This document shows, in pieces, positions 4,685 through 20,827 of a stretch of 21,671 nt of DNA (its first letter is position 1; every line of letters starts with the position of its first letter). The stretch covers positions 1 through 21,671 of IMG/VR virus record IMGVR_UViG_3300031673_009057. One strand, given 5' to 3'. Below the pieces are notes generated by a model. The model was not told the DNA's origin. It saw only the letters and a list, made by a program, of their open reading frames with translations, and did not search any database. The stretch comes from a virus. The position numbers and the translations under genes are program-made.

Positions 4685-5404
4685 ATGATTATCTACAAAG
4701 TTGTAAATGCAATAAATGGAAAATGTTATATAGGTCAAACTACACAAAGTTTAGGGAAAAGGAAAGTAGGACACAAATTTGAAACTAAAAATGGAACCAC
4801 CTATTTTAGTAATGCTTTAAGAAAGTACGGTTTCAAAAATTTTAAATGGGAAGTAATTGAAGAGTGTGATGATAAAGAACAACTTGATGAAATGGAGTTC
4901 CACTACATTAAACAATACAATAGTTTTAAACCGGAAGGATATAATTTAACTTTGGGCGGTGATAAAGGAACATTTGGTTGGAAACCTACAAAAGAAAATA
5001 AAGAAAAAATAGGCAAAGGTGTCAAAAAAGCTTGGATAAAAATGGATAAAAAAACCAAAAGCAAACAAATAAAAAAATTGAGTAATTTTTGGAGTGAAAA
5101 CCATCCCACACGTGGTAAGAAAAGACCAGAAATTTATGGTGAAAATAATCCAGCTAAAAAACCAGAAGTTAGAAAGAAAATTAGCAAAAATGTTAGTAAA
5201 GCAATGGAAAAATTTAACTACGAAGTGATTTCACCACAGGGCAAAGTGTTTAAAATAACCAACATGAAAAAGTTTTGTCGAGAAAATAATCTATCATCAT
5301 GTAGTATGTTTAAATTATGTGATGGTAAAGTATTACAAGGACACCATAAACAGTGGAGAGCTAAAAAATTGGGACTAATAAAGGAGATAAAATGTCAGAA
5401 TTAA
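4685..5404 (+). CDS. Free-standing GIY-YIG homing endonuclease
   Basis: The product is 239 residues. The N-terminal GIY-YIG nuclease (about 1-90) has 'IIYKVVNAINGKCYIGQTT', the Arg/Lys-rich helix 'GKRKVGH', the metal-binding Glu in 'LDEMEFHYIKQY', and 'GYNLTLGG'. DNA-binding NUMOD3-like repeats follow ('KPTKENKEKIGKG' and 'GENNPAKKPEVRKKIS', about 100-170). A C-terminal NUMOD1/IENR1-like domain (about 180-225) reads 'VISPQGKVFKITNMKKFCREN'. It is Lys/Asn-rich and more AT-biased than the structural genes around it, as expected for a mobile gene. It sits between gp13 and a small gene whose Shine-Dalgarno and first four codons lie within its own 3' end (13-bp overlap). The cut site is probably in a neighbouring gene of endonuclease-free relatives (inference). 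Confidence 0.92.
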   Translation: MIIYKVVNAINGKCYIGQTTQSLGKRKVGHKFETKNGTTYFSNALRKYGFKNFKWEVIEECDDKEQLDEMEFHYIKQYNSFKPEGYNLTLGGDKGTFGWKPTKENKEKIGKGVKKAWIKMDKKTKSKQIKKLSNFWSENHPTRGKKRPEIYGENNPAKKPEVRKKISKNVSKAMEKFNYEVISPQGKVFKITNMKKFCRENNLSSCSMFKLCDGKVLQGHHKQWRAKKLGLIKEIKCQN

Positions 5405-7471: not shown

Positions 7472-8242
7472 ATGATTGTCCAATTTTTGGACGCGTTCAA
7501 TGATATACAAGTTAAAAGATTAGAGCCAGACAGCAGTACTGTAAGAGAGCTAATACATGTTCCAGTTAAACTTGCTGTAAAAGAAAAATTCTGGTATTGG
7601 CTACAAGAACGTAAAGACGATGAAGTGCTTCCAATGATAACTGCATGGTTGAGCACAATTGATTATGCTTCTGATAGACAAGTTAATACATTTTATGAAT
7701 TATGTACAAGCACTGATCCTGAAACCGGAACTTACGAAAAGTTCCCACATCCAACGCCATATAACTTTACTTTCTCTATGAACATTTGGTCCCTTTATCT
7801 ATCTGATATTGACCAAATACTGGAACAAATTCTGCCATTCTTCGCACCACATATTTTTATACGTATTCGTATAGATGAACTGGAGATTGAATATGATATT
7901 AAAGTTATTTTTCAAAGCTGTACACCAGAAGTAAGTCTTGAAATGGCTGACGACCAATATAGAGTAATTAACTACTCACTTGAATTTGTTGCTCAAGCCT
8001 GGTTATTTAAACCGGCTGTCACTGAAGGTGGTTTGGTAAAATGTATATATACAAATTACTCTACGACAGCAGATGCACTTGATAGATCATTAACAGATAC
8101 AACAAGTACTTTTACATCTGGTGCTTCTGGTGAGGCAACTTCTCTTTGTGGATATTACGATGAAGATGGACAATTGATTATTAATTATGAAACATTTTCA
8201 TCTGGTGAATCATCAGGAAATGCTTGTCAGGGGGTTGTATAA
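7472..8242 (+). CDS. 15: Proximal tail sheath stabiliser, T4 gp15-like (true start probably 7436)
   Basis: Motifs match T4 gp15 as I remember it: 'QILEQILPFFAPHIF' (T4 'QIVEQILPYFQPHF'), 'YSLEFVAQAWLFKP' (T4 'WSLTFEVNGWMYPP') and 'GLVKCIYTNY' (T4 'GLIRTTYTDF'). gp15 caps the upper end of the sheath and tube and binds the neck. Coordinates given use the first canonical ATG, but the conserved N terminus continues upstream in frame: 'KGYYYYEVIRKMIVQFLD', 'AFNDIQVKR' (T4 'GYFYNSSFRR', 'LFSNIQIKR'). No ATG, GTG or TTG exists there; the only plausible start is AUA at 7436, overlapping the ferritin stop as ATAA and preceded by AAGGAGAGG. From there the protein is 268 residues (T4 272). The tail of the protein is Ser/Thr/Gly-rich. 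Confidence 0.9.
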   Translation: MIVQFLDAFNDIQVKRLEPDSSTVRELIHVPVKLAVKEKFWYWLQERKDDEVLPMITAWLSTIDYASDRQVNTFYELCTSTDPETGTYEKFPHPTPYNFTFSMNIWSLYLSDIDQILEQILPFFAPHIFIRIRIDELEIEYDIKVIFQSCTPEVSLEMADDQYRVINYSLEFVAQAWLFKPAVTEGGLVKCIYTNYSTTADALDRSLTDTTSTFTSGASGEATSLCGYYDEDGQLIINYETFSSGESSGNACQGVV

Positions 8243-8763
8243 TGCCATTGATTTGTGCTGATAGTGGGTTGGTAAATTTGGGTAAGGCAACACCAAGTAA
8301 CTATGAGTTAATCATTCCAAAGATACCAACAGAAACCACAATATCCGCAATCAATCCACTCATACTAAATATTTTTAGTACTGTTATACCTAGCGTTTCT
8401 CTGGCCGAGCAAACATTAAATTACCAAGCGGCACAGACAAAACGAGGACTAGGGCCATTGGTTTATGAACAACTATCTGTTGGTTTTGTAGTTGATTCTG
8501 AATTTGCAGATTGGAAAGTTTTAGTAAAATGGATAAAGTATATAAGCGATAACTCAGAAAAAATGGCAGAGATACATAAACTCTATTCAGTAGATGCAAC
8601 ACTTGCAATCACTGATAACTATAGACAGCCACTTATGGCTATAAGATTTGTAAGCCTTTGGCCAATAACTGTAGCCGAAGTAGGATTGAGTCAAAGGGAA
8701 GGTGAGAGTCAGTTAGAATGTTCAGCGACATTTAATTACGATTACTTTTTAATAGAAGAATAA
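8242..8763 (+). CDS. Tail tube-like protein (second gp19-fold copy)
   Basis: ATG 8242 overlaps the gp15 stop (TAATG) and has CAGGGGG upstream; a TTG at 8224 is less likely. The product is 173 residues. The C-terminal part 'PLMAIRFVSLWPITVAEVGLSQREGESQLECSATFNYDYF' follows the pattern of T4 gp19 ('EIKGLWPTNVGEL' then 'QTFEVTLALDYW'), and the middle has 'FADWKVLVKWIKYISDN' like gp19 'FDDWTVTV...FVDW'. A separate gp19-like gene lies at 10702, so this is a paralogue or a related tube-fold protein such as a tail terminator or tube completion protein. Position next to gp15 favours a head-proximal role (inference). Confidence 0.65.
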   Translation: MPLICADSGLVNLGKATPSNYELIIPKIPTETTISAINPLILNIFSTVIPSVSLAEQTLNYQAAQTKRGLGPLVYEQLSVGFVVDSEFADWKVLVKWIKYISDNSEKMAEIHKLYSVDATLAITDNYRQPLMAIRFVSLWPITVAEVGLSQREGESQLECSATFNYDYFLIEE

Positions 8764-10701: not shown

Positions 10702-11256
10702 ATGCCATCATTAGATAGTTTCAATATTGAAAAATTCAAAGCGAAGTTTGGAGATGGAGCAAAAGGTTCGCTGTTCTATTTTCAGCCTCAGTGGCCAGGG
10801 GGTGTACAAACCTCATTGAGTCCAGAGGATGTTGTTTACTTAGTTAAAACAGCAACGATTCCAAATACTGTCCTTGAAGAAGCGACTGTACAATGGCAAG
10901 GATTTGATTACAAATATGCAACAAAGCATACATATGCCGATCTAGCAGTAACCTTCTATGTAGACTTACAGGCAAAAGTAAGAATGTTATTTGAAAATTG
11001 GTCAAACTTAGTTCATAATCCTTTAACAAATGAATACTCAACAACGAATGAGTATATGATGGACCAAAAACTGCAAATGGTTGGTTACCAAGGCCAGACA
11101 ATCATGGAATTTACCATGCATCACGCATATCCAAAAGAAGTTGGAACAATTGCTATGGACTATGCTACAAATGACTATATTACATTCGATGTAACTTTTT
11201 CATACCTATATCATACAATATCATTCAATGAGTCAGGTGGAGCAGTAAACGTATAA
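10702..11256 (+). CDS. 19: Tail tube protein, T4 gp19-like
   Basis: The product is 184 residues (T4 gp19 163). It follows the sheath gene as in T4. Features of the tube fold: 'VKTATIPNTVLEEATVQWQGFDYKYATKHTYADLAVTFYVD', 'VRMLFENWSNLVHNP', and a C-terminal beta region 'TMHHAYPKEVGTIAMDYATNDYITFDVTFSYLYHTI' (gp19 family: '..A.P..I..I.L.....I..F.VTFSYDYW'). It forms the inner tube of stacked hexamers through which DNA passes. The start has AGGAG upstream. A related tube-like protein is encoded at 8242. Confidence 0.85.
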   Translation: MPSLDSFNIEKFKAKFGDGAKGSLFYFQPQWPGGVQTSLSPEDVVYLVKTATIPNTVLEEATVQWQGFDYKYATKHTYADLAVTFYVDLQAKVRMLFENWSNLVHNPLTNEYSTTNEYMMDQKLQMVGYQGQTIMEFTMHHAYPKEVGTIAMDYATNDYITFDVTFSYLYHTISFNESGGAVNV

Positions 11257-11277: not shown

Positions 11278-12039
11278 ATGTCAGAACAACAGCATCATCA
11301 AGCAAAGTTCCGTAGTATACTTAATGTATATAGTTTCACTTGTGAGCTACCAGGAACAGGTGAAGAAGTAGAATTTAAACCACTAACAACCGGACAACTA
11401 AAAAGGCTTTTAACATATGAAAATGAAAAAAATCCAGCTATTCAAGAAAATGCAATAGATGAAATAATTAACTCAGCCATTATAACAAAGGGCATGTCGT
11501 CACAAAAAATGTTTCTTGAAGATAGATTTTTCTTCTTAATCCAAGTAAGAAAGAAATCAAAAGGTGAAGTAATTGAATTTACTAATGACTGCGAGGAATG
11601 CAAATCTCAAAGCCTTATTAGAATGAGTTTAGATGATTTACCAATTATAAAAAGGAAAGAAGAAGAAGTATATGACTTAGATTTAAACGATGGAATAAAA
11701 ATCAAATTAAAACACATAACTCGTGGAGAACAAAGACAAATTAATCCTCGAGCTTTCAAAGGGCTATCTGAAACACAAATGCATGCTGAGATGCAATTAT
11801 ACACAAATGCACTTGGTATAGAATCAGTAACAACACCAGATTTTGGTGAAGAAACTGAATTAACTATAGAAGATAGAAAGTTCTTAATAGAAAATATACC
11901 AACAAATGAGTATCAAAAAATATTGGATTGGTATGAACAAAACTTTTTTGGAATTAAATTTGAAACCCAATTTAGTTGCATTCACTGTCGCCACACAGAA
12001 AAAATTAATATACCAATGGAACAGGCTTTTTTTTTCTAA
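11278..12039 (+). CDS. 26: Baseplate hub / tail assembly protein, T4 gp26-like
   Basis: The product is 253 residues. The N-terminal 'CELPGTGEEVEFKPLTTGQLKRLL' matches the start of the T4 baseplate family (gp26/gp51; Pfam T4_baseplate), where 'K.LT..Q...L' is typical. Two CxxC pairs, 'CEECKSQS' (about residues 103-106) and 'CIHCRHTEK' near the C terminus, could bind one zinc ion. The gene lies exactly where lambda-like and Mu-like phages place their frameshifted tail assembly chaperone: between tube and tape measure. It ends in '...MEQAFFF' on a run of nine T, from which a -1 shift enters the next ORF (12027-12221). Family membership is from memory; a chaperone role is inference. Confidence 0.7.
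   Translation: MSEQQHHQAKFRSILNVYSFTCELPGTGEEVEFKPLTTGQLKRLLTYENEKNPAIQENAIDEIINSAIITKGMSSQKMFLEDRFFFLIQVRKKSKGEVIEFTNDCEECKSQSLIRMSLDDLPIIKRKEEEVYDLDLNDGIKIKLKHITRGEQRQINPRAFKGLSETQMHAEMQLYTNALGIESVTTPDFGEETELTIEDRKFLIENIPTNEYQKILDWYEQNFFGIKFETQFSCIHCRHTEKINIPMEQAFFF
12027..12036 (+). promoter_or_regulatory. Candidate programmed -1 frameshift site
   Basis: Nine T followed by C are read in the gp26-like frame as GCT TTT TTT TTC TAA. This contains T-TTT-TTT and T-TTT-TTC, canonical X-XXY-YYZ slippery heptamers. A -1 slip avoids the stop three bases later and enters the frame of the ORF that runs to 12221. No strong downstream pseudoknot is obvious. Confidence 0.6.
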
Positions 12040-12044
12040 TCAAA

Positions 12045-12221
12045 ATGTTTGAAACATCTATTGATAGGATAATTGATGATCAATACTGGTTATCAAGAAG
12101 AGCTAATATTAGTGTATCTGAATCAAATGAAATGGCTGAGTTTGAACGATTGTTTTTTGTTAGTCTACTTCTTAGGGATATTAAAGAAGAAAGAGAATCA
12201 TATGAAGGATTAAGTAATTAA
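12045..12221 (+). CDS. Small ORF, likely -1 frameshift extension of the gp26-like protein
   Basis: From ATG 12045 it encodes 58 residues: 'MFETSIDRIIDDQYWLSRRA', then a helical segment 'MAEFERLFFVSLLLRDIKEERE'. The codons directly upstream in this frame are open (TTT TTT TTT CTA ATC AAA ATG), so a -1 slip on the T run would fuse about 61 residues to the gp26-like protein. There is no Shine-Dalgarno before 12045 (T run, then CTAATCAAA), unlike most plus-strand genes here. This arrangement is like the lambda gpG/gpGT and Mu tail assembly chaperones that precede the tape measure gene. Independent initiation cannot be excluded. Confidence 0.7.
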   Translation: MFETSIDRIIDDQYWLSRRANISVSESNEMAEFERLFFVSLLLRDIKEERESYEGLSN

Positions 12222-12250: not shown

Positions 12251-12285
12251 AAAAGGTCTCAAGACTCTACTTGAGACCTTTTTTT
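12251..12285 (+). terminator. Rho-independent terminator before the tape measure gene
   Basis: A 13-bp perfect stem pairs AAAAGGTCTCAAG (12251-12263) with CTTGAGACCTTTT (12270-12282), loop ACTCTA, followed by more T residues. It ends the sheath-tube-gp26 transcript and separates these abundant products from the tape measure gene. No clear late box lies between it and 12299, so the tape measure may depend on readthrough. Confidence 0.9.
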
Positions 12286-12298
12286 ATTAGAGGACTAT

Positions 12299-14029
12299 AT
12301 GGTAATGCAAGACACTGGAATACAAGAACTTAATAAATCTGTTAAACAGATAGTAAAATCACTATCTATTGGAGTGAGTCCGGCTGACGCGAAAAGGATT
12401 GCAGACATGGAATACGAAACTGCAAAACAAGAAAAAGACAATATTGAAAAGAAAAAATCACAGCAATCCAAAGATGGAAAGTTCTGGTCAGATAACATAA
12501 AAACATGGACTCAGCTCGGTAAGTTTATGACAAAAGGAACAAAGGATTGGTTTGCTAAACAAATGAAAGCCACAGGTTTACTAGGCAGTACATTGAGAAT
12601 GGGTGCTAATATATGGAACAATTTAAATGAACACATAATTAAAAATCTTAGAAATGCTTTTAGTTCTATTACCAGTCATGTTAAAGAAGTACTTGGTCCC
12701 GTAGCTGAGGCATTTGAAGCTGTTAAAAATTTATTTTCGGGTGTATTCAAATTCTTTAAAGGTACAATTATGGGAATTGGAGCCAAAGTAAAACCAGAAG
12801 ATAAATTCAGAAACAAAATGCTTCAAAAAATATTAGATATTAATAAAAAGCAGTGGAGTCACATTATAGGAGGTAAAAAAGGAGCGTTCGTAGATAGTCT
12901 TAGTAATAAAGAAAAACCAAAGGGATGGTGGAAATTCTTGCTAATATTAGGTATTATTCTAGCAGCAGCACTCGGCGCTGCAGTAAGAAAATTTATACTT
13001 CCATTTGAGATCGCAGGAAAGTTTATAAGTGGGCCATTTATAAAATTTTTTAAATGGCTTGGTAAAATTGGTAGAGTATTTTTGACAATTATCAAAAATA
13101 CTAAAACAGGCGGAAAAATTTTTGGAGCAATAGGTAAGCTTTTTGGATGGCTCGGAAAGTTATTTGCACCTATTGTTAAAATAGTAAGAACAGTTATAGG
13201 ATTCTTTAAAACACTAGCGCCTGCAGCAGGTATATTAGCCAAACTAGGTAGAGCGTTTATGGTTGGATTTAAAATCCTTGGTTGGCCTTTAACAATAATC
13301 ATGGGTATATATGACTTCATAAAAGGTTTCATAGAAACTGAAGGAACTTTATGGGATAAAATAAAGGGAGGATTTATGGCGGCATTAATGGGATTCATAG
13401 AACTGCCAGTTAGATTTATCTCTTGGCTAATTGAAAAAGTAGCAGGATTTTTTGGTATAGAAATAACTGGATTGGCAGATGGCATATTAGGTTGGATAAA
13501 AAATATGTTTGATAAACTTCTTGACTTGGTGGGGAACCTTCCTTTAATCTCTTTTCTAGTAGGATTCTTTAGTACTGAAGGCACATTCATGGAGAAGTTA
13601 AAAGGTGGATTCAATAATATGGTAAAAGGACTAATTACATTATTTGCTAATATATGGAACTTTGTAGTAGACCTTGCTTATAAACTTCTTCCAGACTGGA
13701 TAGTAAATAAAATTGGTCTCAAAAAAATGGAGGTTCCCGGACAAACAGTAGATACAGGAGGATCAACATCAGACGCAGAGAGCAAGAACAAAGAAGCACA
13801 ATCAGCTGCTAGGAAAAAAGAAAAAGAAGATATGATAAAGATAATGGATGAACAAAAAAAACTTGCAAAAGCACAACTAGATGCAACAAAAGCCGCTGGT
13901 GCTTCAGCTGCTGCTATGGGTGGACAAGGTGGACAAGGTGGACAAGGTGGTGGAGATATACCACAGATACCAGATGAAGTAGACAACTGGGGAGTCACTT
14001 CGAAAAATTATGATATGGAGATGAGTTAA
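12299..14029 (+). CDS. Tape measure / baseplate hub protein, T4 gp29-like
   Basis: The product is 576 residues (T4 gp29 590). It sets tail length and lies extended inside the tube. The N-terminal 60 residues are helical and Lys-rich; a hydrophobic segment 'FLLILGIILAAALGAAV' lies at about 215-232; the centre is rich in Gly, Phe, Trp and Lys amphipathic repeats. Two related blocks about 79 residues apart ('GFIETEGTLWDKIKGGF' at about 343 and 'GFFSTEGTFMEKLKGGF' at about 422) show internal duplication. The C terminus has a charged coiled-coil stretch, then Ala-rich and GGQ repeats. This repeated hydrophobic make-up and the position after the tube and chaperone-like genes fit a tape measure. The start is ATG 12299 (AGAGGA upstream); ATG 12305 is possible. 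Confidence 0.7.
   Translation: MVMQDTGIQELNKSVKQIVKSLSIGVSPADAKRIADMEYETAKQEKDNIEKKKSQQSKDGKFWSDNIKTWTQLGKFMTKGTKDWFAKQMKATGLLGSTLRMGANIWNNLNEHIIKNLRNAFSSITSHVKEVLGPVAEAFEAVKNLFSGVFKFFKGTIMGIGAKVKPEDKFRNKMLQKILDINKKQWSHIIGGKKGAFVDSLSNKEKPKGWWKFLLILGIILAAALGAAVRKFILPFEIAGKFISGPFIKFFKWLGKIGRVFLTIIKNTKTGGKIFGAIGKLFGWLGKLFAPIVKIVRTVIGFFKTLAPAAGILAKLGRAFMVGFKILGWPLTIIMGIYDFIKGFIETEGTLWDKIKGGFMAALMGFIELPVRFISWLIEKVAGFFGIEITGLADGILGWIKNMFDKLLDLVGNLPLISFLVGFFSTEGTFMEKLKGGFNNMVKGLITLFANIWNFVVDLAYKLLPDWIVNKIGLKKMEVPGQTVDTGGSTSDAESKNKEAQSAARKKEKEDMIKIMDEQKKLAKAQLDATKAAGASAAAMGGQGGQGGQGGGDIPQIPDEVDNWGVTSKNYDMEMS
13919..13952 (+). repeat. Tandem 9-bp repeat coding for GGQ
   Basis: GGACAAGGT is repeated three times in frame, giving 'MGGQGGQGGQGGGD' near the C terminus of the tape measure protein. 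It is probably a flexible linker and prone to copy-number change by slippage. Confidence 0.85.
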
Positions 14030-15349: not shown

Positions 15350-15365
15350 TATAAATAGTATTATA
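15350..15365. promoter_or_regulatory. Divergent promoter region: late (+) and early-like (-)
   Basis: Plus strand: TATAAATA at 15350-15357, exact T4 late consensus, predicted start near 15363, only about 2 nt before the ATG at 15365. Minus strand: TATAAT at 15365-15360, a sigma70-type -10 box with a poor -35, predicted start near 15353, suitable for the gene at 15337. The two overlap, so late and early transcription would exclude each other here. Confidence 0.6.
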
Positions 15366-15793
15366 TGAAATTTAAAAATTATATAAATGAAGTACTCAGT
15401 AAAAAGACTCCATTAACAAATGTCTCCAGTCCTGGTGCCTATCAATTAAGATTCAAAGCCGCTGGTGAAGAGTGGATGTTTTTAGCCAATGATACAACAT
15501 TCTCAGACGACTGGGATATATACTTCACTAAAGTAAATGTTGATCCTCTTGATCCATGGACTTTAAAGGGTGACATTGGATCAAAAGTATTTGAAGTATT
15601 CGCCGGTGTTGCTGAGTCACTTAAAAAATTTATTAAAGAAAATGACCCTGAGTACTTTCACTTCACAGCACAAGGTGAAAGCAGGATCAAGCTCTACAAG
15701 AAACTCTCCAAACTAATCGAAAGAAAAACTGGTTACGAACATATAACTACAAAGACTAAAGGCAAATCAGTTATCTTTTACTTTTCTAAATAA
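15365..15793 (+). CDS. Paralogue A of a head-targeted-like protein family (142 aa)
   Basis: It starts 'MKFKNYINE', a match to the T4 capsid-targeting type (I-N-E at 7-9). The body shares with the genes at 16538, 19818 and 20351 a beta segment ('EEWMFLANDTTFSDDWDIYFT') and the C-terminal block 'VFEVFAGVAESLKKFIKEN', 'DPEYFHFTAQGESRIKLYKKLSKLI'. The family is not one I can name. No Shine-Dalgarno precedes the start; the late box TATAAATA is 7 bases upstream, so the mRNA is probably almost leaderless. The stop overlaps the minus-strand gene end by 8 bases. Confidence 0.8.
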   Translation: MKFKNYINEVLSKKTPLTNVSSPGAYQLRFKAAGEEWMFLANDTTFSDDWDIYFTKVNVDPLDPWTLKGDIGSKVFEVFAGVAESLKKFIKENDPEYFHFTAQGESRIKLYKKLSKLIERKTGYEHITTKTKGKSVIFYFSK

Positions 15794-16537: not shown

Positions 16538-16972
16538 ATGAAACAAAAACTGGAAGAATATATAACTGAACTCGCCATGAAGAGTGACACGGACATTGAT
16601 CTTGGTCATAAGAAAGGTGATTACTTCAATGCTAAAATCACTTTAGGAAGCGGTGATATATGGTATTTCAATGCCGAAAATGATATGGGTGATGGTGATT
16701 GGAGTATTGTTTTTTATGCGCCATCAATGAGTCCGGGTATAAGAGGAGACAAAAACAAAGTAGCACTTGAAACATTTGCTGCTGTTGAGAAACTAGTTAA
16801 AGATTTTATAGATAAAGAAAAACCAGAACGATTTCACTTCACCGGTCAGGGTACCAGCCGAGTGAAGTTATATAATACTTTAGCTAAAAAGATTCTCAAA
16901 TCTGGAAAATATGAAAAGGGACCAGATATGAAAATGCTACAAGGTGCTGCTTGGAGTTTTGTTAAGAAATGA
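16538..16972 (+). CDS. Paralogue B of the head-targeted-like family (144 aa)
   Basis: The N terminus 'MKQKLEEYITE' ends in I-T-E at residues 9-11, a predicted prohead-protease site. The conserved core is 'DIWYFNAENDMGDGDWSIVFY' and 'ALETFAAVEKLVKDFIDKEK', 'PERFHFTGQGTSRVKLYNTLAKKIL', aligned with the genes at 15365, 19818 and 20351. It is more diverged in the first 40 residues, as expected if that part is removed or only a signal. No Shine-Dalgarno; a late promoter ends 8 bases upstream. Confidence 0.8.
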   Translation: MKQKLEEYITELAMKSDTDIDLGHKKGDYFNAKITLGSGDIWYFNAENDMGDGDWSIVFYAPSMSPGIRGDKNKVALETFAAVEKLVKDFIDKEKPERFHFTGQGTSRVKLYNTLAKKILKSGKYEKGPDMKMLQGAAWSFVKK

Positions 16973-18990: not shown

Positions 18991-19821
18991 ATGAGACTAA
19001 CTCAATACCTAACAGAATTTCAGGACACTGAAAGTCAAACCAAAAGCCGAGTAAAGAAAATTGATAAAACTAAAGCACAAGACCTATTGAAGTCAAAGTG
19101 TAAAAAAGCAGTAGTTGATTTTCTCACCCATGGTGTACACATTCAAAGGTTTGCAAACGACGCAAGAAATATGGAATATGGTTTTCTTGATGCCTCAAAT
19201 CTTCCACCTCGACTATCCAGGAATAGCCAGAACTACTATACTCTGATAATCAACGATGATCCATCCTGGAAAGGATATCCAAAAAGACAGATAATAGGTA
19301 CAAAAAAAAATAGGATTATGGAAACAACTCCTGGTTTGTGGCATATTTTTCCATTCGATGGAGTCAAAGTAGGTATTGTTCCAGGATATGATATATGGGA
19401 TTCATTCTCAAATTTAAGTAGTGAAGTCGGAATTATGGCAAGAAGATATAATGAGTTCATTTCCATGATGTTAAATTATGGAAATACTAACATTAGTCGG
19501 ACATTTGATAAAAGACTAGCCGAGTTTAAACAAGCGTGTAAGAACACAGACAAATGGATCGCTGATAATGATGGCATTGAAAATGTTGTCAAAGAAAGAT
19601 TTCCAAATCTTGATTCCAGTAAAAAGTCACTGAATAACTATAATGGTGATTACTATAAATCAATACTACATTACTATAACCCAAAGGGATTCAACGTCAG
19701 TACTCCAGGAAGCATGACAGGGAAAGATGGAAATGAAGTATGGCTCGATGGTCCCGCGGTATATTTAAACTCAATTATCTCATTGGAAACAATACAAAGT
19801 ATAATGGGATACTCAGCATGA
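18991..19821 (+). CDS. Large putative head-packaged protein, weak ADP-ribosyltransferase-like features
   Basis: The product is 276 residues and starts 'MRLTQYLTE' (L-T-E, targeting-type). The central part contains 'VHIQRFAND' (R53), 'NSQNYYTLIINDDPSWKGYPKRQIIGT' split at residues 78-103, then 'GLWHIFPFDGVKVGIVPGYDIWDSF'. This series recalls a recurrent phage protein pattern ('YRG', 'SANTSNYYT', 'PKRS..CST', '..Y.VFP.DGAKIGV') whose order (Arg, Ser/Asn-strand, aromatic strand) resembles ADP-ribosyltransferase folds. The resemblance is weak: no clear E-x-E is visible. If real, it would be a functional counterpart of T4 Alt, which is packaged and injected. No Shine-Dalgarno is obvious upstream of 18991. 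The stop overlaps the next ATG. Confidence 0.75.
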   Translation: MRLTQYLTEFQDTESQTKSRVKKIDKTKAQDLLKSKCKKAVVDFLTHGVHIQRFANDARNMEYGFLDASNLPPRLSRNSQNYYTLIINDDPSWKGYPKRQIIGTKKNRIMETTPGLWHIFPFDGVKVGIVPGYDIWDSFSNLSSEVGIMARRYNEFISMMLNYGNTNISRTFDKRLAEFKQACKNTDKWIADNDGIENVVKERFPNLDSSKKSLNNYNGDYYKSILHYYNPKGFNVSTPGSMTGKDGNEVWLDGPAVYLNSIISLETIQSIMGYSA

Positions 19822-20312
19822 GATTCTATAACATCATAAATGAAAAAATAGACCTTAACTATAGGCTTAAGGCCAGTGAAGTGTATGACTCAAAGGACTC
19901 CTATGAAATTGAGTTTAACATTGGTGAAACCGGATACACATTCGAAGCTGAACCGTATTTTCTTGAAGACAGTGAAGGAATGAAAAAGGAACTAGGATTT
20001 GATCCCGACTACGATAGCAATGTAGTCATTTGGAGCATTGCCTTCAAACTGGATTCGGACCCCTTCAACCCATTTGGTATAACTGGTGAGCAGGGCATGA
20101 AGGCCATGGAAGTCTTCTCCGCTGTGGCAGTGTGTTTAAAAAAATTCATTCTAACCAAGCGTCCCGAGTACTTTTCATTCTCAGCTAAGGAACGATCCAG
20201 AGTAAATCTGTATTCCAGGTTTGCTAAAATGATACCAAAGATCACAGGAAAATACACAATGAAAGAATTTACACACAAGTCGAATAAGTACTTTTTATTT
20301 GTGAGGAACTAA
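19818..20312 (+). CDS. Paralogue C of the head-targeted-like family (164 aa)
   Basis: ATG 19818 overlaps the previous stop (ATGA); the frame is open up to 19740, inside the previous gene, but the targeting motif starts at 19818: 'MRFYNIINE' (I-N-E). The conserved family parts are 'YTFEAEPYF', 'VVIWSIAFK', and 'AMEVFSAVAVCLKKFILTKR', 'PEYFSFSAKERSRVNLYSRFAKMI'. It carries a longer insert in the first half than copies A and B ('LEDSEGMKKELGFDPDYD'). Confidence 0.8.
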   Translation: MRFYNIINEKIDLNYRLKASEVYDSKDSYEIEFNIGETGYTFEAEPYFLEDSEGMKKELGFDPDYDSNVVIWSIAFKLDSDPFNPFGITGEQGMKAMEVFSAVAVCLKKFILTKRPEYFSFSAKERSRVNLYSRFAKMIPKITGKYTMKEFTHKSNKYFLFVRN

Positions 20313-20350: not shown

Positions 20351-20827
20351 ATGCAAGATTTCACTAGATGGGAAGAATATTACTTAATTGAAAAGCTAGA
20401 CCTGAATGTACCTGTAAAGGTTACAGTCAATAACAAGATATTGTGGCAAGCTACATGGGAAGTAAATGGAGTGAAGTTTAGGTTTGTAGCTGAAAATGAT
20501 GATGATTGGGAGGATGAATTTCCAGAGTGGAGTATAACCTTTTGGAACATGTCTACGCCTTCTATTTTTTCCTCTGGTAGTACAGATTTAACAGGTGATA
20601 TGGGTGCTTCCTCTTTAAAGGTTTTCTCAGGGGTTGCTAGTGCCTTTAAGAAATTCATTCGAGTAAAGAAACCCCAACACTTCTTTTTCTCCGCAGAAGA
20701 GCCTAGCCGTGTAAGGCTTTACAATAGGCTCGCCAAGATGATCGCCAGTGAATTTCACTATAAAATGATGAAAGATAATGATGGTTCCAATACGTTTTAT
20801 GGGTTCACAAAGAAATACTCATCCTGA
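20351..20827 (+). CDS. Paralogue D of the head-targeted-like family (158 aa)
   Basis: AAGGAG lies 6 bases before ATG 20351. The N terminus 'MQDFTRWEEYYLIE' ends in L-I-E at residues 12-14, acidic rather than basic, and the least typical of the set. Family core: 'FRFVAENDDDWEDEFPEWSI', 'SSLKVFSGVASAFKKFIRVK', 'PQHFFFSAEEPSRVRLYNRLAKMI'. A DDDWEDE acidic patch matches the 'D-D-W' stretch of copies A and B. The gene ends four bases before a convergent minus-strand gene. Confidence 0.8.
   Translation: MQDFTRWEEYYLIEKLDLNVPVKVTVNNKILWQATWEVNGVKFRFVAENDDDWEDEFPEWSITFWNMSTPSIFSSGSTDLTGDMGASSLKVFSGVASAFKKFIRVKKPQHFFFSAEEPSRVRLYNRLAKMIASEFHYKMMKDNDGSNTFYGFTKKYSS

Follow-up and report, generated by a model that had tools for sequence, protein, structure and literature searches.

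The window analysed in the current study (the whole stretch of DNA, 21,671 nucleotides) derives from a T4-like contractile-tailed phage and corresponds to a 21.7 kb virus record in IMG/VR. A gene for a gp26-like protein of 253 aa, the short form (TAC-N; PF12322/phrog_150), is located at 11278-12039 on the + strand, and was assigned by profile matches and an AlphaFold2 model. Its 3' end reads GCT TTT TTT TTC TAA and contains a run of exactly nine T's (12027-12035), which forms, together with the following C, a putative slippery site, T9C (12027-12036, + strand), with the overlapping 0-frame heptamers T TTT TTT and T TTT TTC for a -1 slip. The 0-frame stop codon TAA (12037-12039, + strand), which terminates the short form, follows directly.

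The next ORF on the + strand (ORF2, 58 aa) is annotated at 12045-12221 and lies in the -1 frame relative to the gp26-like gene. Counted from the T run, the -1 frame extension (TAC-C; 12027-12221, + strand) comprises 64 codons and is similar to the C-terminal part of gp51 and to phrog_634; the product of its fusion to TAC-N would be 314 aa long. Since the -1 frame is free of stops from 28 nt 5' of the 0-frame stop, a slip must fall inside these 28 nt. The gene end, the -1 position of the next ORF and the frame open through T9, as described in a previous sequence-only reading, were confirmed from the sequence. At a GC content of 35%, a first-order Markov simulation predicted 0.3 runs of T9 on the + strand of the window, against one observed, so that the run alone is unsurprising, and it is its position and conservation that go beyond chance.

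The TAC gene pair sits between a tail-tube-like gene on the 5' side of TAC-N (10702-11256; phrog_45, E 4e-35) and a tape-measure-like gene on the 3' side of ORF2 (12299-14029, 576 aa), the latter recognized by a weak match to phrog_58 (E 0.0018) and by its position. This agrees with the location between tube and tape measure genes that had been proposed from the sequence. A second tail-tube-like gene, also of phrog_45, was found at 8242-8763, and the two flank the gene in the sheath position. Elsewhere in the window, an ORF among the head-tail genes (4685-5404) resembled, by eye, a GIY-YIG homing endonuclease, and four small ORFs (15365-15793, 16538-16972, 19740-20312 and 20351-20827), likewise judged by eye, appeared to be paralogous, having in common a motif of the type F.F(T/S)A...SR..LY.

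A strong intrinsic terminator was detected at 12251-12282, between ORF2 and the tape-measure-like gene, and may limit tape measure expression. It was conserved in the close relatives L002, L004, L005 and L016, and was present with a different stem in the more distant L099; no terminator after ORF2 was seen in L017, L018 and L100-L105. A small hairpin lies 5' of the terminator (TTAGCC...GGCTAA), and in L005 both of its arms differ (TTAGCT...AGCTAA), which is a compensatory change.

Protein family and predicted fold

The TAC-N protein matched PF12322 with an E-value of 3e-28 (99.5 bits, curated cut-off 24.5) and phrog_150 with an E-value of 2e-29. For ORF2, 11 of 12 clade members matched phrog_634, which is annotated as 'baseplate hub assembly catalyst' (best 2e-6), and a profile comparison of ORF2 from the window clade with ORF2 from cyanophages gave an hhalign E-value of 3e-9. 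T4 gp26 (208 aa) covers phrog_150 up to position 235, and T4 gp51 (249 aa) covers it up to position 280 and also matches phrog_634. When compared with an HMM of the fused family, gp51 aligned as a single chain over the junction and gp26 stopped at it, indicating that gp26 corresponds to the short form and gp51 to the long form. The direct profile match between the window-clade fusion and T4 gp51 was weak and not significant; the link between them runs via the cyanophage-type family.

The AlphaFold2 model of TAC-N had a pLDDT of 86.6. A plain Foldseek search of this model against the PDB gave no significant match, and a sequence search with the gp26 profile against solved structures found nothing. 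A second-look aligner, with which 794 PDB chains were aligned to the model, placed solved tail assembly chaperones highest, the best matches being 3fgx (Z 5.5), the HK97 chaperone 2ob9 (Z 5.4) and YqbN 3klu (Z 5.2), followed by 5ir0 (Z 4.2) and a fifth entry at Z 2.3. The Z-scores of the top three are modest and their alignments span 80-90 residues, confined to the N-terminal ~95 residues of the model; 3fgx carries the title of an uncharacterised protein. The -1 extension was predicted to be helical. The identification of the first protein as a tail assembly chaperone is thus supported by its homology to T4 gp26/gp51 and by its predicted fold. The connection of gp26-type proteins with such chaperones, as suggested in the sequence-only reading, was strengthened by the same two lines of evidence, but it is not new, having been published in 2022.

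Conservation of the slippery site and of the -1 frame

The 15-nt block GCTTTTTTTTTCTAA (T9C-TAA) was invariant in the five aligned loci, i.e. the window and L002, L004, L005 and L016, whose proteins are 68–91% identical to that of the window (IMG/VR relatives at 91, 84 and 68%). This invariance was found despite approximately 0.5 synonymous differences per site in ORF2 among the close clade. A slippery T run before the stop, with ORF2 at -1, was present in all 14 window-type relatives. At 40–45% identity (L017, L018 and L099-L105) the gene ended in AAT TTT TTT TCA TAA, AAC TTT TTT TTC TAA or AAT TTT TTT GGN TAA, and ORF2 was always at -1. A T6-T9 heptamer and the same frame relation recur in about 100 further relatives.

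In the cyanophage-type genes, NNT TTT TTC was located one codon ahead of the stop in all 79 distinct sequences. The base before the Phe pair was T in 79/79, whereas T ends only 62% of the Ser codons of these genes, and the Phe pair was TTT TTC in every case although TTT accounts for 72% of Phe codons; no probability is attached to this bias because the sequences share ancestry. In contigs of metagenome-assembled genomes (MAGs), a slippery T TTT TTC/T site with ORF2 at -1 was found in 10 of 10 readable cases, an eleventh being masked. Isolates in agreement include Cr30, C48C1, nt-1, Yut3, AS-szw, an Ochrobactrum phage and P-SSM3. Over the whole family, T TTT TTY is retained as the in-frame heptamer, even where the run is as short as T6C. 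Pseudoalteromonas XG4 carries T TTT TTA as its heptamer. The 0 frame of Pelagibacter phage Mosig does not end at the slip site but continues for several codons beyond it. Two distant phages, Pseudomonas phage Cygsa01 (L109) and Vibrio phage D495 (L110), were exceptions, in which the heptamer is absent and a TAATG overlap is found instead, possibly reflecting a switch from frameshifting to coupled translation.

The counts for the window-type, cyanophage-type and MAG sequences provide strong comparative support for the programmed -1 frameshift that had been postulated from the window itself. Conservation in related phages had been proposed as a check, and the relatives do retain the slippery site and the -1 frame, many of them without a start codon for the second ORF.

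Probable frameshifting and alternative explanations

Judged from sequence comparison, the locus very probably encodes the TAC-N/TAC-NC pair of a T4-like phage, with the long form produced by a programmed -1 frameshift. An ATG at 12045-12047 (+ strand), 5 nt past the gp26 stop, could allow ORF2 to be made as a separate small protein by coupling or re-initiation, the T run then being incidental. In agreement with this, the ATG is kept throughout the close clade, and stop-start overlaps (TAATG or TGATG) occur in some distant relatives. It is conserved only in the close clade, however, and no Shine-Dalgarno sequence was found before it (gctttttttttctaatcaaaATG), as had already been remarked together with the presence of such sequences at most neighbouring genes; a match of at least 4 nt was observed at about 18 of 26 starts examined. 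Moreover, many relatives have no nearby start codon and yet retain the -1 frame, which is still under coding constraint. In L017 and L102-L105 there is no ATG, GTG or TTG in this frame until about codon 30, and the first start codon comes not before codon 26 in C48C1 and not before codon 30 in AS-szw. Immediately past the 0-frame stop, the -1 frame had a pN/pS of 0.15 in the L017/L100-type group, where the other frames gave 0.6–0.9, and of 0.36 in the close window clade, from few codons; over the TAC-C extension it was 0.32 within the close clade. A coding constraint that lies upstream of any start is not explained by a separately initiated ORF2, but is explained by a shift. With the slippery codons being fixed against codon usage, and T4 gp51 being one fused chain, a separate ORF2 protein is considered very unlikely, although coupled initiation may occur in the window's own close clade, as far as the sequence tells.

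Adding one T would join the two frames, and the run could in principle be a homopolymer sequencing error within what is really one gene. However, several contigs of independent origin have a run of equal length, and the frame break is also present in the isolates S-SM2, Cr30, C48C1 and nt-1, whose runs are shorter, so that an error is next to impossible. A lone homopolymer error had been named as a possible refutation of the frameshift, and this did not hold, as the run recurs in independent contigs and isolates.

For the programmed frameshift, the likeliest mechanism is tandem slippage of two Phe-tRNAs on U UUU UUU or U UUU UUC. Ordinary translation of 11278-12039 would yield the abundant short form, TAC-N, of the gp26 type. 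At U9C, ahead of the stop, the two Phe-tRNAs of a minority of ribosomes would re-pair one base back on one of these heptamers, and the slipped ribosomes would bypass UAA and translate as far as 12221. Their product would be the rarer long form, TAC-NC, in which the gp26 domain would be joined to a predicted helical, gp51-type tail domain over the junction ...EQAFFFLIKMFE... If the pair works as G/GT does in lambda, the tape measure protein would be coated by TAC-N, tube subunits would be brought in by TAC-NC, and both would be absent from the virion. The analysis establishes the layout of the locus, its conservation, the constraint on the -1 frame as coding sequence, the homology and the predicted fold. 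We infer that slippage occurs and that it is ribosomal, and likewise its efficiency and the binding partners of the two forms.

The two forms could also arise from mixed mRNAs, if RNA polymerase instead of the ribosome slipped on T9. A run of nine T's is long enough for RNA polymerase to slip in bacteria, and throughout the close clade T9 does not vary. What is constant in the family as a whole, however, is the heptamer T TTT TTY and not the length of the run, which shrinks to T6C, so that tandem tRNA slippage is the better fit, and transcriptional slippage as the sole source of the two forms is considered unlikely. It may add to ribosomal slippage in the T9 clade.

A conserved 3' stimulatory structure was also sought. 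The fold downstream of the site in the window scored z -1.8, and L005 and L016 have not retained its sequence; because of this weak fold and unconserved sequence, no 3' RNA stimulator is claimed. In the cyanophage-type genes, the upstream codon is GAG in 60/79 compared with a usage of 34%, an excess in sequence that suggests an upstream Shine-Dalgarno stimulator in cyanophages. No such stimulator was evident in the window.

It is conceivable, if doubtful, that T9C is slippery for RNA polymerase as well as for the ribosome and that, together with the terminator after ORF2, it sets the dosage of chaperone to tape measure protein. If this were true, T9C and the terminator would constitute a two-level control by slippage and attenuation. 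To our knowledge, no control of this kind has been described for T4-like tails.

Comparison with known tail assembly chaperones

In phage lambda, the G/GT proteins are produced by a -1 slip close to the 3' end of the first of the two genes, between the tube and tape measure genes (PMC5009743), and Atkins et al. (2016) described the G-T shift as widely conserved 'except T4' (PMC5009743). The window and lambda G/GT are alike in the position of the -1 slip, in the location between tube and tape measure genes and in having a short and a long form. This likeness rests on arrangement and fold class. The slip sequence of lambda G/GT differs from that of the window. In the Vandenendeviridae phage Adele, TAC-N ends with a poly-T motif at which a conserved -1 shift occurs (PMC12846349). 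Adele is like the window in this respect, but its motif is GTTTTT and it belongs to a different phage family.

The cyanophages S-SM2 and P-SSM3 resemble the window, with a pair of gp26 and a short 'gp51', a U UUU UUC slip site and ORF2 at -1, except that T6C and one codon precede the stop in cyanophages, whereas T9C stands directly before TAA in the window. Sullivan et al. (2010) reported that the first ~200 residues are missing from cyanophage gp51 (PMC3037559). The protein seemed short because annotators saw only the -1 extension. Annotation pipelines overlook or mis-start ORF2 in other phages as well; in the database records, the ORF2 start of C48C1 is placed well within the conserved region, and ORF2 of AS-szw is unannotated.

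The TAC genes of T4-like phages were identified by Vladimirov, Gautam & Davidson (2022), as referred to in passages of PMC10885494 and PMC12846349. According to these passages, that study describes, for T4-like phages, -1 shift signals of the poly-T kind within TAC-N genes (PMC12846349) and, in some of these phages, one short gene alongside a fused long one (PMC10885494). As these genes are already published, the locus in the window is a further example and not a new principle. The protein family and the occurrence of short and long forms are the same, but the window clade is uncultivated and has T9 where cyanophages have T6C. The 2022 study is said to have found frameshifting conserved in several T4-like groups, with T4 using genes 26 and 51. 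The sequences analysed here suggest that the frameshifted chaperone arrangement extends to this uncultivated T4-like clade.

T4 itself, which the sequence-only reading described as not known for such a shift, uses no frameshift. Its gp26 is equivalent to the short form of the window, and its gp51 consists of a gp26-type domain and the C-terminal domain that is encoded by ORF2 in the window. Both forms are made in T4 from paralogous genes, 26 and 51, located on opposite strands, whereas the window has a single locus. A -1 slip signal was present in nearly every relative examined that is not of the T4 type, while T4 and its closer kin have a separate fused gene 51.
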